Source: Actinomycetaceae bacterium zg-1166 (GTDB lineage Bacteria; Actinomycetota; Actinomycetes; Actinomycetales; Actinomycetaceae). Taken from it: a stretch of DNA of 64,000 nucleotides. Numbering within the stretch: position 1 is the first letter of the stretch; the number at the start of each line of letters is the position of its first letter. The notes under the pieces were generated by a model that made no database searches, had not been told where the DNA came from, and saw only the letters and a list, made by a program, of their open reading frames with translations. This document shows positions 48,345-62,582 of this stretch, in pieces. A program made the position numbers and the translations under genes. The stretch covers positions 992,001 through 1,056,000 of the forward strand of contig CP064953.1 in the NCBI GenBank assembly GCA_015679245.1, in the 5' to 3' direction.

Positions 48345-49595
48345 CTACCCCTCACCCTCGTCTGCGGCGTCAGGTTGGGCCTGCTCGAATGAAAGTTCTT
48401 GGCCGTCGCGCATGACCTTGATGCCGCTGGTAGCCCCGGCAAGCTCGCGGTAGCGGTTGATGATGACATCGGCGTACTTCGGATCGAGTTCCACCAGACG
48501 TGCTACGCGCCCGGTCTGCTCAGCAGCCACCAAAGTAGAACCAGACCCGCCAAAGGCATCAAGAACGATCTGATTGCTCAGAGAAGAGTTGAGGATTGGG
48601 TAGGCGATGAGCTCGACCGGTTTCATCGTGGGGTGGTCCGTGTTCTTACGGGGCTTATCAAAACGCCAGATGGTCGATTCTTTGCGCCCGGTGTACCACT
48701 GGTGGCGGCCTTTCTTCTTCCACCCGAAAAGTACCGGCTCGTGCTGCCACTGATACGGGCTCCTACCCAGCACAATGGACTGCTTGACCCAAATACAGCA
48801 GCCTGAGAGGTAGAACCCAGCGTCGTCGAAGGCCTTACGGAACGCATAGCCCCCAGTATCAGAGTGGAAGACGTAAATACTGGCGTCGTCAGCCATCACA
48901 CTCGAGACAGCGGTGAAGGCTTTGGTGAGGAAAGCGACGAAGGAGTCGTTATCCATATGATCGTTAGCGATTTTGCCCGCAGACCCCTCATAGTTGACGT
49001 TGTAAGGCGGGTCAGTAACCACCAAATTCGCCTTCTCATCACCCATTAGGGCTGTGAAGGTGTCTGGGTCGGTGGAGTCCCCAACAATGAGGCGATGCCT
49101 GCCGAGCTGCCAGATGTCCCCAGTCTTACTCATGGCGGGTTTGGCTAGTTCTGCCTCGACATCGAAATCATCCTCTTCGATTCCACCGGCCAGTTGGTCG
49201 CGGAAGAGTGCGTCGACTTCAGCGGGGTCGAAACCCGTCAGGGTCACGTCGAAGTCCTCAGCCTGCAAGTCAGCAATCAACAAGGCCAGTTTGGACTCAT
49301 CCCACTCACCCTTGACCTTATTGAGTGCCACGTTCAACGCTTTTTCTTTGGCCTCGTCTAAATCGACGATGACGCATTCGATTTCGGTGTGTCCGAGTGC
49401 GGTGAGTACTTTAAGGCGCTGGTGACCACCCACCACACGCCCGGTCGCCTGGTTGAAAATGACAGGTTCGACGTAACCAAACTCCTCAACCGACCTCTTC
49501 AACTTTTCGAACTCGGGGTCACCAGGTTGGAGGTCTTTGCGGGGGTTGTAGTCCGCCGCCTGAAGATCAGCGACCGCAATCTTCTTGATATTCAC
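48345..49595 (-). CDS. ParB-domain DNA methylase (N6-adenine/N4-cytosine type), intact copy
   Basis: 416 residues. ParB/sulfiredoxin-like N-domain (IAVADLQAADYNPRKDLQPG, VVGGHQRLKVLTALGHTEIE) joined to a methylase with VVTDPPYNVNYEGSAGKIAN (catalytic DPPY) and SAM-binding DAFGGSGSTLVAAEQTGRVA. The start is a GTG overlapping the MetK stop by four bases. Such proteins protect phage DNA or alter its expression; the target motif is not predictable. Two related relics lie at 11348 and 12433. Confidence 0.93.
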   Translation of the reverse strand: MNIKKIAVADLQAADYNPRKDLQPGDPEFEKLKRSVEEFGYVEPVIFNQATGRVVGGHQRLKVLTALGHTEIECVIVDLDEAKEKALNVALNKVKGEWDESKLALLIADLQAEDFDVTLTGFDPAEVDALFRDQLAGGIEEDDFDVEAELAKPAMSKTGDIWQLGRHRLIVGDSTDPDTFTALMGDEKANLVVTDPPYNVNYEGSAGKIANDHMDNDSFVAFLTKAFTAVSSVMADDASIYVFHSDTGGYAFRKAFDDAGFYLSGCCIWVKQSIVLGRSPYQWQHEPVLFGWKKKGRHQWYTGRKESTIWRFDKPRKNTDHPTMKPVELIAYPILNSSLSNQIVLDAFGGSGSTLVAAEQTGRVARLVELDPKYADVIINRYRELAGATSGIKVMRDGQELSFEQAQPDAADEGEG

Positions 49596-50860
49596 TGCCC
49601 AGCCTCCTCAGTGGTTTCGCCGTGGCAGGTCTTGGCGTGATCGATAACGTGGGCTTTGAGGTTCCATGAGCCAGTGCTGCTTTCCCACCCGGGGTACGCA
49701 CCATTGACCCCACCGAAGTGCCCGTATGCGCTGTAGCGGGCGAAACCGGGGTTACGGAGTTTGAAGCGGTCAATGATCGCTCCCGGCCGCAAACTGTAGA
49801 ACTCCATCAATGCCAGGCGAATATCCTCATCCGTGACCTCTGGGATGTGGGTGCCGTGAGTGTCAATGTCGAAGGCAACCGGATCGGCCTTGCCAATCGC
49901 GTAGGAAATGCCGACCGTACACCGCTTAGCAAGACGGCCCGCCACCACCTGCTTAGCAAGGAAACGCGCCATATAAGCACCCGTGCGGTCGACCTTGGTC
50001 GCATCCTTACCAGAAAACGCTCCACCGCCATGGGGTGCATGGCCCCCGTAGGTGTCAACCATCAACTTTCGACCCGTCAGGCCCGTGTCTGCTCCCGGGC
50101 CACCCTTGACCAACCGGCCCGAAGGATTCACCAGGACGGTAGTGTATTGGAGGGTTTCGATACCGATCGCCTCTAAGGCTGGGGCAACAATCTTGGAAAT
50201 GACTTCCCGGCGCAGCTCCTCCAGGTCTTTGGCCGCATCGTGCTGGATGGATATGACGACGGTGGGTGCGGTAATCGGCGTGCCATTCTCATCAACCGTG
50301 AGGGTGACTTGGGCTTTGCCATCCGGGCCGATACCAGCAATGGTTCCTTGCTCGCGGGCTTGGTCCAGGCGGGCGCAAATCTCATGCGCTGCAACCAGTG
50401 AGGCGGGAAGGAAATCCTTGGTGGCATCAGTGGCATACCCATAGACCGTTCCTTGGTCGCCAGCACCGAGGTCGCTAAACGCCCCGGCCTGCTCCACGCC
50501 ACCATCTCGGGTCTCCAACGCTGTGTCCACCCCACCAGCAATATCGCTGGACTGCTTCGTGACGTTCACTGACACGAGGTATTTCCACGGCTGGTAGCCG
50601 AGCCGGGCTAGGGTCGAGCGCACCACCTGACGGATCTTCACTTTGCCGTTGCAGGTGATTTGCCCGGCAACGGTGATGAGGTGGTTGGAGGCCATAACCT
50701 CCACCGCACACCTGGAGGCTGGGTCTTCCCAAAGACACGCATCGAGAATCTCATCGCTAATCCGATCACACACCTTGTCAGGGTGACCAGCACAAACAGA
50801 CTCACTGGTCTCTAAGCGGATGGCGGGTGGGCTGTATGGGGTGAGAGCGGTTGAAGGCAT
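49592..50860 (-). CDS. metK: Phage-encoded S-adenosylmethionine synthetase, second copy
   Basis: 422 residues from ATG 50860 (AAAGGA upstream). Motifs: ETSESVCAGHPDKVCDRISD, GAGDQGTVYGYATDATKDFL, DTYGGHAPHGGGAFSGKDAT, all catalytic blocks present. Its gene is coupled to the methylase by GTGA. The arrangement implies it raises SAM for the methylase or makes the phage independent of the host supply. Two prophages in one window carry this pair in the same order, which argues for selection on the pair. Confidence 0.95.
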   Translation of the reverse strand: MPSTALTPYSPPAIRLETSESVCAGHPDKVCDRISDEILDACLWEDPASRCAVEVMASNHLITVAGQITCNGKVKIRQVVRSTLARLGYQPWKYLVSVNVTKQSSDIAGGVDTALETRDGGVEQAGAFSDLGAGDQGTVYGYATDATKDFLPASLVAAHEICARLDQAREQGTIAGIGPDGKAQVTLTVDENGTPITAPTVVISIQHDAAKDLEELRREVISKIVAPALEAIGIETLQYTTVLVNPSGRLVKGGPGADTGLTGRKLMVDTYGGHAPHGGGAFSGKDATKVDRTGAYMARFLAKQVVAGRLAKRCTVGISYAIGKADPVAFDIDTHGTHIPEVTDEDIRLALMEFYSLRPGAIIDRFKLRNPGFARYSAYGHFGGVNGAYPGWESSTGSWNLKAHVIDHAKTCHGETTEEAGQ

Positions 50861-50899
50861 GGTTAGTCCTTTGAGTTTGGTGGGCGGAAAACAGGAAGA

Positions 50900-50919
50900 C
50901 CCCCACCAAACGGTGGAAG
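50900..50919 (-). terminator. Hairpin between terS and metK, followed by T-rich sequence
   Basis: CTTCCACC pairs with GGTGGGGG around GTTT on the minus strand, then TCTTCCTGTTTT. It corresponds to 14885-14909 before the other metK copy. Confidence 0.5.
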
Positions 50920-50944
50920 CCAAAAAGAAGTGGGAGCGAGGGTT

Positions 50945-58443: not shown

Positions 58444-59391
58444 ATGAGCAAGCCGGTAAAACGAGCAGCGACAATCGCTCAACACATCGATCTGCTACGT
58501 TCTCGCGGTATGCAAGTCGATACCGACGTCGCATCACAATGGCTTAGTTTCGTCAGCTATTACCGGCTATCAGCGTATTGGTATCCTGCCCGACACGTCT
58601 CGGCACACGACGTACGCCAAGATACGTTCACACTGGGCACTCGTTTCAGTGATGCTGTTGCGCTTTACGAAGCAGATCGCAAACTACGTGCACTTGTGCA
58701 TGACGGAATGGAACGCGTCGAAATTGCGATGCGCACCCGCATAGGGGAAGCGCTGACCGCAACCGACCCACTCGCTTACACCGATCCGCAACGGTTTCGC
58801 CCGACGTTTAACCACAAGAAATGGATGACGACACTCGACAAGCGCATCAACCGTGCAGGCAGAAACAATGAAGCAATCAAGCATTACCGAGACTCCTACG
58901 ACAGCCAATACCCGTTTTGGGTACTAGCTGAGGTGCTCGATTTCGCTGACATTTCACGCCTTTACGAAGGATTACCGGCATCTGACCAGCGAAAAATCGC
59001 CGAGGACATGGGACTCGTCATCGACTTGACAGCACTGTCGAAAAACCAGCAACGCAAAACCAAACTCCAATCACCGCTCGTGCGATGGATGGAACAACTG
59101 AGTATCGTCCGTAACTTCTGTGCACACCACGCCAGGCTGTGGAACAAATCCTTCGCCCCGGCACCGACAGCAGCATTACGAACGCTCCCACAATTCGCGT
59201 CGCTGCCCCTCGGGCAAAGCGGACAAATATTCGGTGTCCTCACTGTTATGGCGGGGCTCATCCGCGTCACATCGCCAGGAACAACCTGGCCAAACAAAAT
59301 CAGCAGCCTCATTAACAACGAGTTCTTAGCAAACCCTCTTGTCAACCCCACCAGTTTGGGCCTACCAGAAAACTGGAATCACAGCTTCTAA
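58444..59391 (+). CDS. Abi_2 family (AbiD/AbiF) abortive-infection protein with HEPN motif
   Basis: 315 residues from ATG 58444, GGAG five bases upstream. N-terminal Abi_2 blocks: HIDLLRSRGMQVDTDVASQW, FVSYYRLSAYWYPARH, then EADRKLRALVHDGMERVEIA, MRTRIGEAL. The C-terminal half holds QLSIVRNFCAHHARLWNKSF, where Arg223 and His228 form the R-x4-H signature of HEPN ribonucleases. The protein is therefore a likely RNase toxin that stops growth on infection. Plus-strand cargo between the antirepressor and the DNA polymerase; its stop is three bases from the polymerase stop. Confidence 0.9.
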   Translation: MSKPVKRAATIAQHIDLLRSRGMQVDTDVASQWLSFVSYYRLSAYWYPARHVSAHDVRQDTFTLGTRFSDAVALYEADRKLRALVHDGMERVEIAMRTRIGEALTATDPLAYTDPQRFRPTFNHKKWMTTLDKRINRAGRNNEAIKHYRDSYDSQYPFWVLAEVLDFADISRLYEGLPASDQRKIAEDMGLVIDLTALSKNQQRKTKLQSPLVRWMEQLSIVRNFCAHHARLWNKSFAPAPTAALRTLPQFASLPLGQSGQIFGVLTVMAGLIRVTSPGTTWPNKISSLINNEFLANPLVNPTSLGLPENWNHSF

Positions 59392-59394
59392 CTG

Positions 59395-62289
59395 CTAATC
59401 CTTACGATAAAAGTCGCACTCATACCCATCAGCTGCGAGCGGCAACCCCGCCGCCCAGTCAGGCACGGTGGCCATAAGACCACAGATCTCCTCAACGCTG
59501 GCGGTGGTGGTTTCGACAACGATCTCGTCGTGGACGTGCATCACGATCCGATGCCCAGCCTCGGCCACCTGGTGCATGCCGTAGACCAGCAGGTCGCGGG
59601 CAATGGCTTGGACAATGTTCTCAGTGAGCTTGCCACCATAGGTCTCCAGAGTGCCCCATTTCCGTCCGGTAGCCACGCCGTCGTAGACGATCGAGGTGCC
59701 GCCGAAACGGTTCTCCCCCAACCTCGGTTTCACATACGCGAGCCTGCGCCCAGATGGCAGCTCGATGAAGAAGACCCCAGATTCGACCGAGAACGTCAGC
59801 GAGCCAACGCTGGTGGCATGGCGGGTAGCGATCGTGTCGATGGCTGCTTGGTTGATTTGTGCCCAGAGGTTGACGATGTTGGGATTGGCTGCCCGCCACG
59901 CATCCACCAACGGCTGCAACTCATGCTCTGCTAGCCCCATCCGCAGAGCACCCATAGCCTTCAGCGCACCGATGCCGCCTTGATAACCGCAGTTGTGAAC
60001 GAGGTGTCCCGATACGGTGTAACGGTGATGTTCTCCGGCATGCCGTAGGTCATAAACTCGAGCCTGGCCTCGATCAATGGCCACGCCTTGTATCGGTGTT
60101 TGACTGCTGTGCGGGCATCGTTGATGATCTGGTCTCGGGTTTTTCCAGTCGAGAGTTTGCGCGTGACGACGCTTTGCGCGTAGGGCCAGTAGCGTTGCTC
60201 CAAACGAGAAAACACTGTGTTTCGGCGGTTGCCAATGTTCGCCTTGCGGTCGACGAATCGTAGATTGCCCGGCTCGTAATGACCGTTGGTATCGATACGA
60301 TCCAGCTCCAGTTCCTCGCTCGCATCGGGCAGATTGTCCAAAATCCATAGTCCTGCTTCCTGGATGGAGGAGAACCTGAATTCGATTCCACGCCCGCCGT
60401 AGGATTCCCATTGTTGATCGTTGGGGTTGGTGCAGCGTTGCTTGGCGGCGGTCAGTCTGCGATCCAGCCAACGCGGAATGTGTGGAAGATCCTTCTCGGA
60501 ACAGTTCTGGCACCCTTTGGATCGCCCGCTTGTCAGTGCGCCGAGATTGATCCATTCGATCTTGCCACAGCCAGTGCAGCGTGTTTCGACGTAGCAGTAA
60601 TTCCAGTTTTTCGACCATCGTTTTTCGGGGTTGATGATCTGCACCCACCCGTATTGGGTGCCGACCATCTCCGGTTTGTAGGAGATGTGCGCCGCTGGCG
60701 GCAGCTTGCCCGAATAGTATTGGCTCCGGTTGCCATTGAACCCACACGAGGTGATCTGGCGTGGCGATAAGTCCTTGATATTCAATGACATTGCGTATTC
60801 CTTGATAGATCAGTCCTTCATGAGCGACAAAACTGTTTCCGTCCCACACTTTGTGACTGCAGGTGACCTGTTCGATAGGCACTTCTCCGTGATCGGTGAG
60901 CACCAGCTGGCCTTGAGCAATACACGCCAAGACTGCGATCTTGCCTTTCTGCCGCAGGTCGGCGTTGATACCGTGTTTTTCGACAGGGACGCCAAACATC
61001 CTGCTCGCGGTCTCGCAATACAAGTCCTTGCCTTCCTCGAACGCGCGCAGCGTCGTGGTTTCACCTGCGAGCCAGGCGATCACGCGAGCCTCAATCGCAG
61101 AAAAGTCAGCGACAACGAACCGGTTCCCCGGCGCGGGGATGAAGGCGGTGCGGATCAGCTGAGAGAGAGTGTCTGGAACGGAGTCGTAAAGCAGCTCGAT
61201 GGATTCGAAGTTTCCTGCTTTAACGAGTGCGCGGGCCTCATCGAGGTCTGGGAGGTAGTTGCGGGGCAGGTTTTGGACTTGCACCAAACGGCCAGCGAAC
61301 CTGCCCGTCCTCCCAGCACCATAAAACTGCAGCAGACCTCTCCCCCGGCCATCAGCTCCGGCGACGTGTTGCATCGCCTCATACTTCTTGACCGAGGATT
61401 TGGAAAGTTCGCCGCGCAACTCCAAAGCCTCACGCACATCTCCCGTCGCTGTTTCGAGGGCGGTGGCGACTTCGGCTTTGGCCAAGGAGGTCATGTGACA
61501 ACCGTGATCGATAAGCCATTGTTTGAGTTGGATCGGCGAGTTCGGATTCTCCAACCCGGTCAGTTGCTGGGCGCGCTCGAGTGTGGCAGCGCGGTGCTGC
61601 CGGTCGCAGGCCACAGCATTATCCACAAGCACCCCGTCGAGCAGGATCCCGGTATCGTTGATGGTCTGATCTAAGGCGTAGGTGTCCCACTCACTCTCGG
61701 GCATGGGGAAAGCGGCGAGACGCTCGTGAATCGCCAACTCCACTTCCACGTCCCGCCGGTTGTATGCCTTAAACGCCTCCCAACCAGCAGGATCAGACTC
61801 GGGCGGGTTCCGTGTGGCTCCGCCATTGAGCACAGTGGCCTTGACTGGGGTGCAGAACTGGGTGATGAGCTTCCGACCCGCCGCATCCTTCCGCACAGGA
61901 AGTTTCAGGACGGCGGCCACCTGCTCCAGGCTCATCGGCAACCCCAGATAGGCCGACCACACCATCGTGCACCGCCACTGCCCAGGATCTAAAAACCGCC
62001 GTCCATCCATGAGGTGAGGGTGATGGCAGGTCAGCCAGGTCGATAGGCAGAGGCGTTCAAAAGCTGCGTTGAACGCCCACTTCCTTACGTCCGGATCCAC
62101 CAACGCTCGCAGAATCTCGTCTGGTAGTTCTTCACCGCAGGCCAGATCAACCACCTCCACCGGGCCGCCGTCGATGGAATAGCCGAACAGCAAAACATCA
62201 AAGCCGGGATCTTCAACATACGGGTAGACCCCGGATTTCGTGAGATTGACGGGCGAGAATGTTTCGAGATCGGTAAATAGCTCACGCAT
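59395..62289 (-). CDS. Phage DNA polymerase (family A) containing an intein
   Basis: 964 residues from ATG 62289 (AAGGAG eight bases upstream); 653 after removal of a 311-residue intein. The 3'-5' exonuclease domain starts LFTDLETFSPVNLTKSGVYP (DxE) and includes WAFNAAFERLCLSTW and AYNRRDVEVELAIHER. Polymerase motifs: A, FVVADFSAIEARVIAWLAGE (near 395); B, LRQKGKIAVLA joined to CGYQGGIGALKAMG across the intein; C, RIVMHVHDEIVVETTTASVE. It belongs to the phage group next to DUF2815/DUF2800. The intein sits inside motif B, so the polymerase should be inactive until splicing. Confidence 0.93.
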   Translation of the reverse strand: MRELFTDLETFSPVNLTKSGVYPYVEDPGFDVLLFGYSIDGGPVEVVDLACGEELPDEILRALVDPDVRKWAFNAAFERLCLSTWLTCHHPHLMDGRRFLDPGQWRCTMVWSAYLGLPMSLEQVAAVLKLPVRKDAAGRKLITQFCTPVKATVLNGGATRNPPESDPAGWEAFKAYNRRDVEVELAIHERLAAFPMPESEWDTYALDQTINDTGILLDGVLVDNAVACDRQHRAATLERAQQLTGLENPNSPIQLKQWLIDHGCHMTSLAKAEVATALETATGDVREALELRGELSKSSVKKYEAMQHVAGADGRGRGLLQFYGAGRTGRFAGRLVQVQNLPRNYLPDLDEARALVKAGNFESIELLYDSVPDTLSQLIRTAFIPAPGNRFVVADFSAIEARVIAWLAGETTTLRAFEEGKDLYCETASRMFGVPVEKHGINADLRQKGKIAVLACIAQGQLVLTDHGEVPIEQVTCSHKVWDGNSFVAHEGLIYQGIRNVIEYQGLIATPDHLVWVQWQPEPILFGQAAASGAHLLQTGDGRHPIRVGADHQPRKTMVEKLELLLRRNTLHWLWQDRMDQSRRTDKRAIQRVPELFREGSSTHSALAGSQTDRRQATLHQPQRSTMGILRRAWNRIQVLLHPGSRTMDFGQSARCERGTGAGSYRYQRSLRAGQSTIRRPQGEHWQPPKHSVFSFGATLLALRAKRRHAQTLDWKNPRPDHQRCPHSSQTPIQGVAIDRGQARVYDLRHAGEHHRYTVSGHLVHNCGYQGGIGALKAMGALRMGLAEHELQPLVDAWRAANPNIVNLWAQINQAAIDTIATRHATSVGSLTFSVESGVFFIELPSGRRLAYVKPRLGENRFGGTSIVYDGVATGRKWGTLETYGGKLTENIVQAIARDLLVYGMHQVAEAGHRIVMHVHDEIVVETTTASVEEICGLMATVPDWAAGLPLAADGYECDFYRKD
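59961..60791 (-). CDS. HNH homing endonuclease nested in the intein, in a different frame
   Basis: Up to 276 residues from ATG 60791 (AAGGA seven bases upstream); another start is ATG 60668. Zinc-ribbon cysteines at 72/75 and 94/97 (RCTGCGKIEW, GCQNCSEK) precede the HNH-type region WLDRRLTAAKQRCTNPNDQQ, SYGGRGIEFRFSSIQEAGLW, LELDRIDTNGHYEPGNLRFV and DRKANIGNRRN. Codon use (mostly G or C at the third position) and motifs show it is the real coding frame from about 60665 to 60070. The intein frame across this stretch is a shadow rich in Arg and Gln yet has no stop. It would cut intein-free polymerase genes. Confidence 0.8.
   Translation of the reverse strand: MSLNIKDLSPRQITSCGFNGNRSQYYSGKLPPAAHISYKPEMVGTQYGWVQIINPEKRWSKNWNYCYVETRCTGCGKIEWINLGALTSGRSKGCQNCSEKDLPHIPRWLDRRLTAAKQRCTNPNDQQWESYGGRGIEFRFSSIQEAGLWILDNLPDASEELELDRIDTNGHYEPGNLRFVDRKANIGNRRNTVFSRLEQRYWPYAQSVVTRKLSTGKTRDQIINDARTAVKHRYKAWPLIEARLEFMTYGMPENITVTPYRDTSFTTAVIKAASVR
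59992..60924 (-). other. Intein in polymerase motif B
   Basis: Block A starts CIAQGQLVLTDHGEVPIEQV with Cys1; block B is GLIATPDHLVWV (Thr, His); blocks F and G are VYDLRHAGEHHRYTVSGHLV then HN with Cys as the first extein residue (N/CGYQGG). Intein residues are 456-766 of the precursor. All splicing residues expected for a class 1 intein are present. No LAGLIDADG block is seen; the endonuclease is the HNH frame nested within. Confidence 0.92.
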
Positions 62290-62317
62290 GAGGGCATCTC
62301 CTTGGCATAGACATGTG

Positions 62318-62361
62318 TGGCTGGGAGAACACCCCAGCGTTGATCGGTGTTCTCCCAGCCA
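62318..62361. repeat. Perfect 16-bp inverted repeat between two phage genes
   Basis: TGGCTGGGAGAACACC and GGTGTTCTCCCAGCCA around a 12-base loop, between the small membrane gene and the polymerase. On the minus strand no T run follows, so it may be an operator or mRNA stabiliser rather than a terminator. Confidence 0.65.
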
Positions 62362-62372
62362 AGGTTGATGGT

Positions 62373-62582
62373 TTATGGGTTGGTGGGCGTGCGGTACTGC
62401 TCGCACTCAGCCTCGGTATCGGCGATGAGCTTTTCTAGCCGCTTGCGATCGCGGCGGATCTTCCACCGCTCGGCAATCACAGAGGCGACCTCCATAAGAG
62501 CCCAGCCAACGACAGCACCCACGAACATAGCCACGACGGTGGTGGCGTTTGCGGACAGTGCTGCTGCATAACACTCGTTCAT
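62373..62582 (-). CDS. Small membrane protein with coiled-coil tail
   Basis: 69 residues, MNECYAAALSANATTVVAMF, one membrane helix (VVAMFVGAVVGWALMEVASV) and a charged helix (RWKIRRDRKRLEKLIADTEA). GGAG seven bases before ATG. It lies between DUF2815 and the DNA polymerase. Function unknown; the topology resembles small phage membrane proteins that anchor replication or exclude other phages. Confidence 0.65.
   Translation of the reverse strand: MNECYAAALSANATTVVAMFVGAVVGWALMEVASVIAERWKIRRDRKRLEKLIADTEAECEQYRTPTNP

Follow-up and report, generated by a model that had tools for sequence, protein, structure and literature searches.

A predicted HNH endonuclease gene in a second reading frame of a phage DNA polymerase intein

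Inteins are classed as full-length, with the nuclease in frame, as mini or as split (PMC7765530). Is there a further layout, in which the nuclease shares the bases of the intein and is read in another frame? An out-of-frame HNH gene has been described in a DNA methylase, the ShiLan domain/Pacc40 insertion (Arsenault, Gosselin and Gogarten 2025, PMC11855218), and a 2025 announcement mentions a ShiLan-like arrangement in the Applejack methylase (PMC12613952). Here we analyse a stretch of 64,000 nucleotides from Actinomycetaceae bacterium zg-1166 (GCA_015679245.1, contig CP064953.1, positions 992,001 to 1,056,000 of the forward strand), called the window below; coordinates refer to it unless a locus is named. 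In this window a family-A phage DNA polymerase gene is interrupted by an intein, and an HNH endonuclease is encoded within the intein one base on. The explanation we judge best, with a probability of roughly 0.83, is that a mobile mini-intein holds a homing endonuclease gene nested in antiphase, which would be translated separately.

How does this element compare with the described systems? As in ShiLan, the HNH gene lies in another frame of the insertion, the host gene is kept open and the distribution is sporadic. However, ShiLan is without splicing motifs and is thought to be retained in the protein, and no ribosome-binding site was found for it, a GTG start being proposed (PMC11855218), while the present element is a recognisable intein with a complete predicted Hint self-splicing domain and with conserved start and Shine-Dalgarno (SD) signals. 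Canonical bifunctional inteins share the Hint splicing blocks and the position of the endonuclease between blocks B and F, but their endonuclease domain is in the intein frame and in the same polypeptide. The free-standing phage HNH endonucleases (PHROG 374, 3377) have the same HNH core and zinc ribbon, but as separate genes that are not nested. Parts of the layout are already public in phage APSE-1 (P45/P46, NC_000935), where a polymerase intein contains an annotated +1 HNH gene, although at another polymerase insertion site and with HNH and intein of another clade; the annotated start of P46 lies downstream of a conserved GTG. The "intein-containing DNA polymerase precursor" of Jerseyviruses, for example in the Salmonella phages vB_SalS-S10 and T102, is also a polymerase intein with a complete out-of-frame HNH open reading frame (ORF), but this ORF is in the +2 frame, forms its own clade and is unannotated.

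No description of the nested APSE-1 layout was found in the literature covered. Likewise no paper on an out-of-frame nuclease within an intein was found, in a search that did not cover Gorbalenya 1998 ("Non-canonical inteins") or Gosselin 2025 on bioRxiv (actinobacteriophage inteins, "non-canonical architecture"), either of which may report one. We rate out-of-frame HNH elements as already known in other phage genes, and the intein version as new and widespread. At slightly better than even odds, we regard it as a previously uncharacterised, widespread mobile-intein architecture, in which a nested and independently initiated endonuclease gene occupies the other frame of the Hint loop and the coding of splicing and nuclease functions overlaps at both ends. 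With at least three clades and two offsets (+1, +2) it would stand beside the bifunctional intein as a stable alternative rather than a freak. Many phage polymerase inteins without an apparent nuclease, or whose nuclease is unknown, would then hide one. An uncoupled nuclease in the same bases would make a fourth intein layout. The splicing domain and the nuclease would be freed from folding together, and the expression rate of the nuclease could be its own.

Two coding layers in one intein

The polymerase gene lies at 59395-62406 on the minus strand (Pfam DNA_pol_A, 7e-22), as an ORF of 1003 codons that is stop-free over its whole length. The intein (59992-60924, minus; 311 amino acids from Cys1 to His-Asn) is inserted after ...KIAVLA and before CGYQGG, in the polymerase motif B region. 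Its motifs are CIAQGQLVLTDHG at Cys1 (60924), TPDHLVW, VYDLRHAGEHHRYTV and LVHN/C (59992). All the splicing blocks are present, A with Cys1, B with TxxH, and F and G with His-Asn, followed by a Cys at +1, and the host site is conserved. The four blocks are invariant across 17 aligned inteins, and residues C1, T55, H58, D292 and N311 are invariant as well (in A3). In the AlphaFold model from the intein alignment, pLDDT is 90-96 for residues 1-80, 73 for 81-90 and 84-93 for 280-311, and it falls below 50 for the middle, residues 93-279; a Hint fold is confident at residues 1-90 and 280-311 only. The top Foldseek matches of this model are all inteins or Hint proteins, e.g. NpuDnaE and Mtu RecA (E 2e-3, probability 1.00), and the model assigns the intein to the Hint fold. 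The sequence profile of the intein matched no convincing solved structure.

The nested ORF (59961-60791, minus) encodes 276 amino acids from an ATG start, in the +1 frame relative to the polymerase, and matches HNH endonucleases of PHROG 374 (2e-22) and PHROG 3377 (2e-18). It contains a zinc ribbon (C72-x2-C75 ... C94-x2-C97; 60501-60578), invariant among 22 aligned HNH proteins, together with LDRIDTNGHYEPGNLRF. The nuclease core spans residues 112-190 (YGGRGI ... LDRIDTNGHYEPGNLR ... N; 60222-60458) and is supported by an alignment to PacI and by residues invariant in the 22 sequences, namely G132, R134, G135, I136, D164, R165, I166, N176, R178 and N188. Core and zinc ribbon are both present in this putative nuclease. 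The HNH model has a mean pLDDT of 75, and its disordered N- and C-termini are the portions that overlap the intein blocks. Foldseek with this model gave no meaningful match and the sequence profile of the protein no convincing solved structure; structural matches being weak, it is sequence families and motifs that identify the protein as HNH.

In the original prediction, made from the letters of this DNA, the intein blocks, the stop-free polymerase frame and an HNH endonuclease with a zinc ribbon in another frame had all been placed where we find them. It had put the overlap at about 600 bp. The two-frame overlap is there, but its size differs: the HNH ORF covers 800 bp of the intein and 31 bp of the C-extein, and pure filler makes up about 185 codons. 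A spliced polymerase of 653 residues had also been anticipated, which is right if translation starts at ATG 62289, while a start at GTG 62406 gives 692. As for its proposal to search databases with both frames, the HNH protein was recovered in PHROG and the intein through its model in Foldseek, but Pfam and NCBIfam matched neither.

Relatives, constraint and start signals

Is the out-of-frame layout a peculiarity of one assembly? Searches of phage records by tblastn with the intein-frame and HNH proteins found Streptococcus phages Javan101, 104, 107, 113, 255 and PhiSdyV1524 and Gardnerella phage vB_Gva_AB1, which match both frames over near full length (54-56% identity for HNH, 38-40% for the intein frame). 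IMG/VR and a set with one genome for each species supplied more relatives. These come from Corynebacterium, Actinomycetaceae, Gardnerella, many Bacillota, and metagenome-assembled genomes (MAGs) of Spirochaetales and Synergistaceae, and HNH identity in relatives is 53-74%. The main count comprises full-size inteins that have an HNH region, 106 in all and no two identical, near-identical copies being counted separately. In all 106 both the intein frame and the HNH core are stop-free; the HNH gene is at +1 in 103 and at +2 in three, and it is in frame in none. Relatives ranked on the full intein frame could be biased towards the out-of-frame layout, so the search was repeated with essentially only splicing-domain information, the query alignment consisting of HNH-less or HNH-deleted mini-inteins. 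Among the 74 non-identical relatives recovered in this way no in-frame nuclease was found: the identifiable endonucleases of full-size inteins are all at +1 and the other relatives are mini-inteins. One +2 match beside mini-intein L284 probably belongs to a neighbouring element. The original prediction had singled out relatives with HNH in frame, or with stops in the intein frame, as evidence against itself; the former did not turn up in either search, and the latter are absent from the 106, the exceptions outside this set being L151, which has lost one base near intein codon 43, and L217. We conclude that the out-of-frame layout is real and conserved in more than 100 related phages and bacteria, and that an artefact is excluded.

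The three parts of the intein differ in what constrains them. Is the intein frame open by chance? When the HNH peptide was kept and its codons were resampled from the usage of that gene, scoring the HNH-only stretch, 2.4-19.4 intein-frame stops were expected per locus and none was observed in 16 loci; at the present locus 9.3 were expected against 0, and likewise 0 were seen in the 15 relatives. A two-way recoding test was then applied to 14 sequences (82 pairs with HNH identity below 66%). Its z values treat pairs as independent although the relatives are related, and are therefore inflated, as are P values; inflation of this kind does not explain why the regions differ. Intein columns 1-103 are conserved far above the level imposed by HNH (z 14-36), columns 104-287 are near that level (z -0.9 to 4), and in columns 288-307 both frames are conserved beyond the constraint of the other (z 20.7 and 31.7). 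The HNH frame in turn is conserved beyond intein constraint at columns about 61-307 (z 23-39) and not at columns 1-40. On these grounds the N-terminal splicing region (residues 1-92; 60649-60924, minus) is set by pLDDT, Foldseek and conservation exceeding HNH constraint. The C-terminal splicing region with blocks F and G (residues 280-311; 59992-60087, minus), dual-coded with the HNH C-terminus, is set by pLDDT and conservation in both frames. Between them the intein frame holds filler (residues 93-279; 60088-60648, minus), which is the HNH coding core in the +1 frame, marked by low pLDDT, by the recoding test and by being open in 106/106 relatives. This middle had been called open but not meaningful for the intein, and the pLDDT, the conservation near the HNH-imposed level and the zero stops agree with that description. 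About 60 codons are dual-constrained (about 43 on the N side and 20 on the C side), and the middle of about 185 codons is constrained as HNH plus the absence of stops. The locus therefore offers long and deeply sampled overlapping genes in two modes, one dual-constrained and one single-frame plus stop-free, and is a good test case for the origin and upkeep of overlapping genes.

How might the HNH gene be translated? A ribosome-binding site had been claimed before ATG 60791, and an SD-like AAGGA indeed stands at 60799-60803 (minus), within the intein coding sequence and 7 nt before that ATG, which itself is inside intein block B. The duplex energy of this SD is -4.0 kcal/mol, equalled in 0.9% of recoded sequences. 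An ATG at intein codon 45 or 49 is present in 84 of 90 relatives, and several have a perfect AAGGAGGT before it, formed by the Lys-Glu-Val codons of the intein. With synonymous recoding of the intein peptide, an ATG would be expected in 3.5 of 15 representatives but is observed in 13 (P 3e-8 if independent). APSE-type elements have ATG or GTG at codon 68 after an SD-like sequence, with an HNH-frame stop just upstream. The invariant Met42 of HNH was considered as a start and dropped: no SD precedes it, and conservation of the HNH frame begins upstream (about intein column 61). The conserved starts with SD sites favour the separate translation proposed originally, and internal initiation is the best reading of how HNH would be translated, frameshifting being less likely.

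Mobility and rival explanations

What bears on homing is a sporadic presence and an intein-free close homologue. Once spliced, the polymerase of 653 residues can be aligned continuously with homologues that have no intein, at up to 88% identity (genome G129), and the DNA junction is exact; locus L214 has an exact empty intein site. Of 200 genomes of the host family, 44 have the polymerase, and three of these 44 carry the intein, all with HNH at +1. In five relatives (L043, L124, L178, L179 and L180) the HNH core is gone and the first HNH residues are retained in the +1 frame of what are now mini-inteins. The closest relative, L133 of an Actinomycetaceae MAG (JAUNVG010000019.1, 4001-4822), has a nonsense codon after the catalytic core of HNH and an intact intein frame, and L047 has an early stop within HNH. 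Loss of HNH before loss of the intein is what one would expect if, in a homing cycle, the nuclease is the first part to decay. Under our explanation, about 90 N-terminal and 32 C-terminal residues of the polymerase-frame insert would form the Hint protein-splicing domain, and the roughly 185 residues between its halves would be disordered filler, kept because the frame must stay open to the C-extein. One base on, a separate zinc-ribbon HNH endonuclease would be made from the internal start and SD in block B. Splicing of the precursor would give an intact polymerase, and the HNH protein would cut intein-free polymerase genes at the insertion site, where repair would copy the whole element in.

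Several points weigh against this explanation. Splicing, separate translation, DNA cleavage and homing are steps that we infer for this element. Extein and HNH divergence correlate (r 0.78) and no clear recent homing was seen; the comparison of these divergences did not find recent transfer between distant hosts, blastn on exteins being too insensitive for it, and an apparent case (L168 vs Gardnerella, 66% vs 99%) was discarded since it was caused by a scaffold gap of Ns. The ATG is missing in 6 of 90 relatives, the SD is weak in a few, and both signals may in part simply follow from the conserved intein peptide (KEVIxY). On the nuclease side, HNH lacks a Pfam or NCBIfam match, has Arg in place of the usual first motif His (D-R-I-D), and its model aligns only weakly in fold to the PacI HNH (VIA-align, Z 5.4, residues 105-190). 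The inflated z and P values belong here too.

Could HNH be made by programmed ribosomal frameshifting instead, as a fusion of N-extein, intein N-terminus and HNH with no separately initiated protein? HNH shares its mRNA with the polymerase and is read in a shifted frame, SD-like sequences are able to stimulate frameshifting, and some loci have a +1 frame without stops from close to the beginning of the intein. Yet most relatives examined have a +1 stop directly before the HNH start (codons 43-47; codon 61 in the APSE type), which leaves scant room, start codons with SD recur at fixed positions, and the clades at +1 and +2 would need different shifts. We hold this to be unlikely, and give about the same low credence to the view that the HNH frame is a relic without active nuclease, functionally a mini-intein with a frozen insert. 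The stops in L133 and L047, the deletion of the HNH core in several relatives and a sporadic distribution that could be old all speak for a relic; on the other hand HNH is the more strongly conserved frame over the middle, its zinc and core residues are invariant, and its core is open throughout the 106.

Far less probable is an ordinary bifunctional intein with HNH in frame that has been disturbed by errors of sequencing or by two recent frameshifts compensating each other. Such inteins do exist in general, and L151 shows that a single base can be lost, but the 106 full-size copies, which are non-identical and stem from independent assemblies and different phyla, include none in frame, and both frames are under selection. 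A recent frameshift origin is thus refuted and an ancient one by compensating frameshifts is possible. The original prediction had the endonuclease gene entering a mini-intein out of frame, which is not established: given the age of the layout in all three clades described below, insertion and a very old compensating pair are indistinguishable. The least credible alternative, with hardly any probability, is a self-splicing intron with an ORF. Phage group I introns commonly carry HNH genes, but a search of Rfam up to E = 1 gave no match and hence no ribozyme core, the host frame is not interrupted, the extein frame is open throughout in all full-size relatives, and the intein blocks are perfect with a predicted Hint fold.

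Clades, annotation and genomic setting

Three clades were resolved in both the splicing-domain and the HNH trees. Clade 1, with the present element, has HNH at +1 and sits mostly at polymerase motif B. Clade 2 (APSE, Caulobacter and Shewanella phages) has HNH at +1 and is inserted at ENxxQA. Clade 3 (MR14, Vibrio 97.13, EBPR siphovirus 2 and Jerseyviruses) has HNH at +2; its type of HNH is matched in 166 phage records, of which 145 carry Salmonella phage names, the frame being checked in five, and no relative of MR14 HNH was found in IMG/VR. Six full-size inteins (L288, L289, L291, L295, L298 and L303) have a +1 HNH nearer the MR14/EBPR type, which is elsewhere at +2, and nuclease exchange between frames is possible there.

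The nested layout is almost never annotated. Among the annotated records inspected, the HNH gene is present in APSE-1, where RefSeq labels the nested gene "HNH endonuclease" inside the polymerase, and absent in Streptococcus, Gardnerella, Caulobacter, Shewanella and Jerseyvirus records; those of the Streptococcus and Gardnerella phages have only the polymerase annotated. This reveals a blind spot of gene callers.

Some individual loci deviate from the common arrangement. L217, of the APSE type, has several frame changes in the polymerase/intein region and is apparently a decaying copy. In L014 (3780-4850) an ORF similar to a sigma-like helix-turn-helix protein stands in place of the first part of polymerase and intein, and reads through into the HNH frame; HNH is thereby fused to another gene, and the remaining intein and C-extein are still open. 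Hints of a second intein-like element in the same gene were seen in L028 (2949), L149 (2004), L170 (3090) and L301.

The neighbours of the polymerase gene include an Enc34-type single-stranded DNA-binding protein, a DUF2800/PD-(D/E)XK protein and a BRO/KilAC antirepressor; this is a prophage replication module, in a single-contig genome of 1.92 Mb. Between polymerase and antirepressor, on the opposite strand, is an abortive-infection-like Abi_2 gene (58444-59391, plus; Pfam 1.6e-50), which looks like prophage cargo. Also in the prophage region (48345-50923, minus), neighbouring ORFs resemble a ParB-like/adenine-methyltransferase protein and an S-adenosylmethionine synthetase, as judged by eye from the translation.

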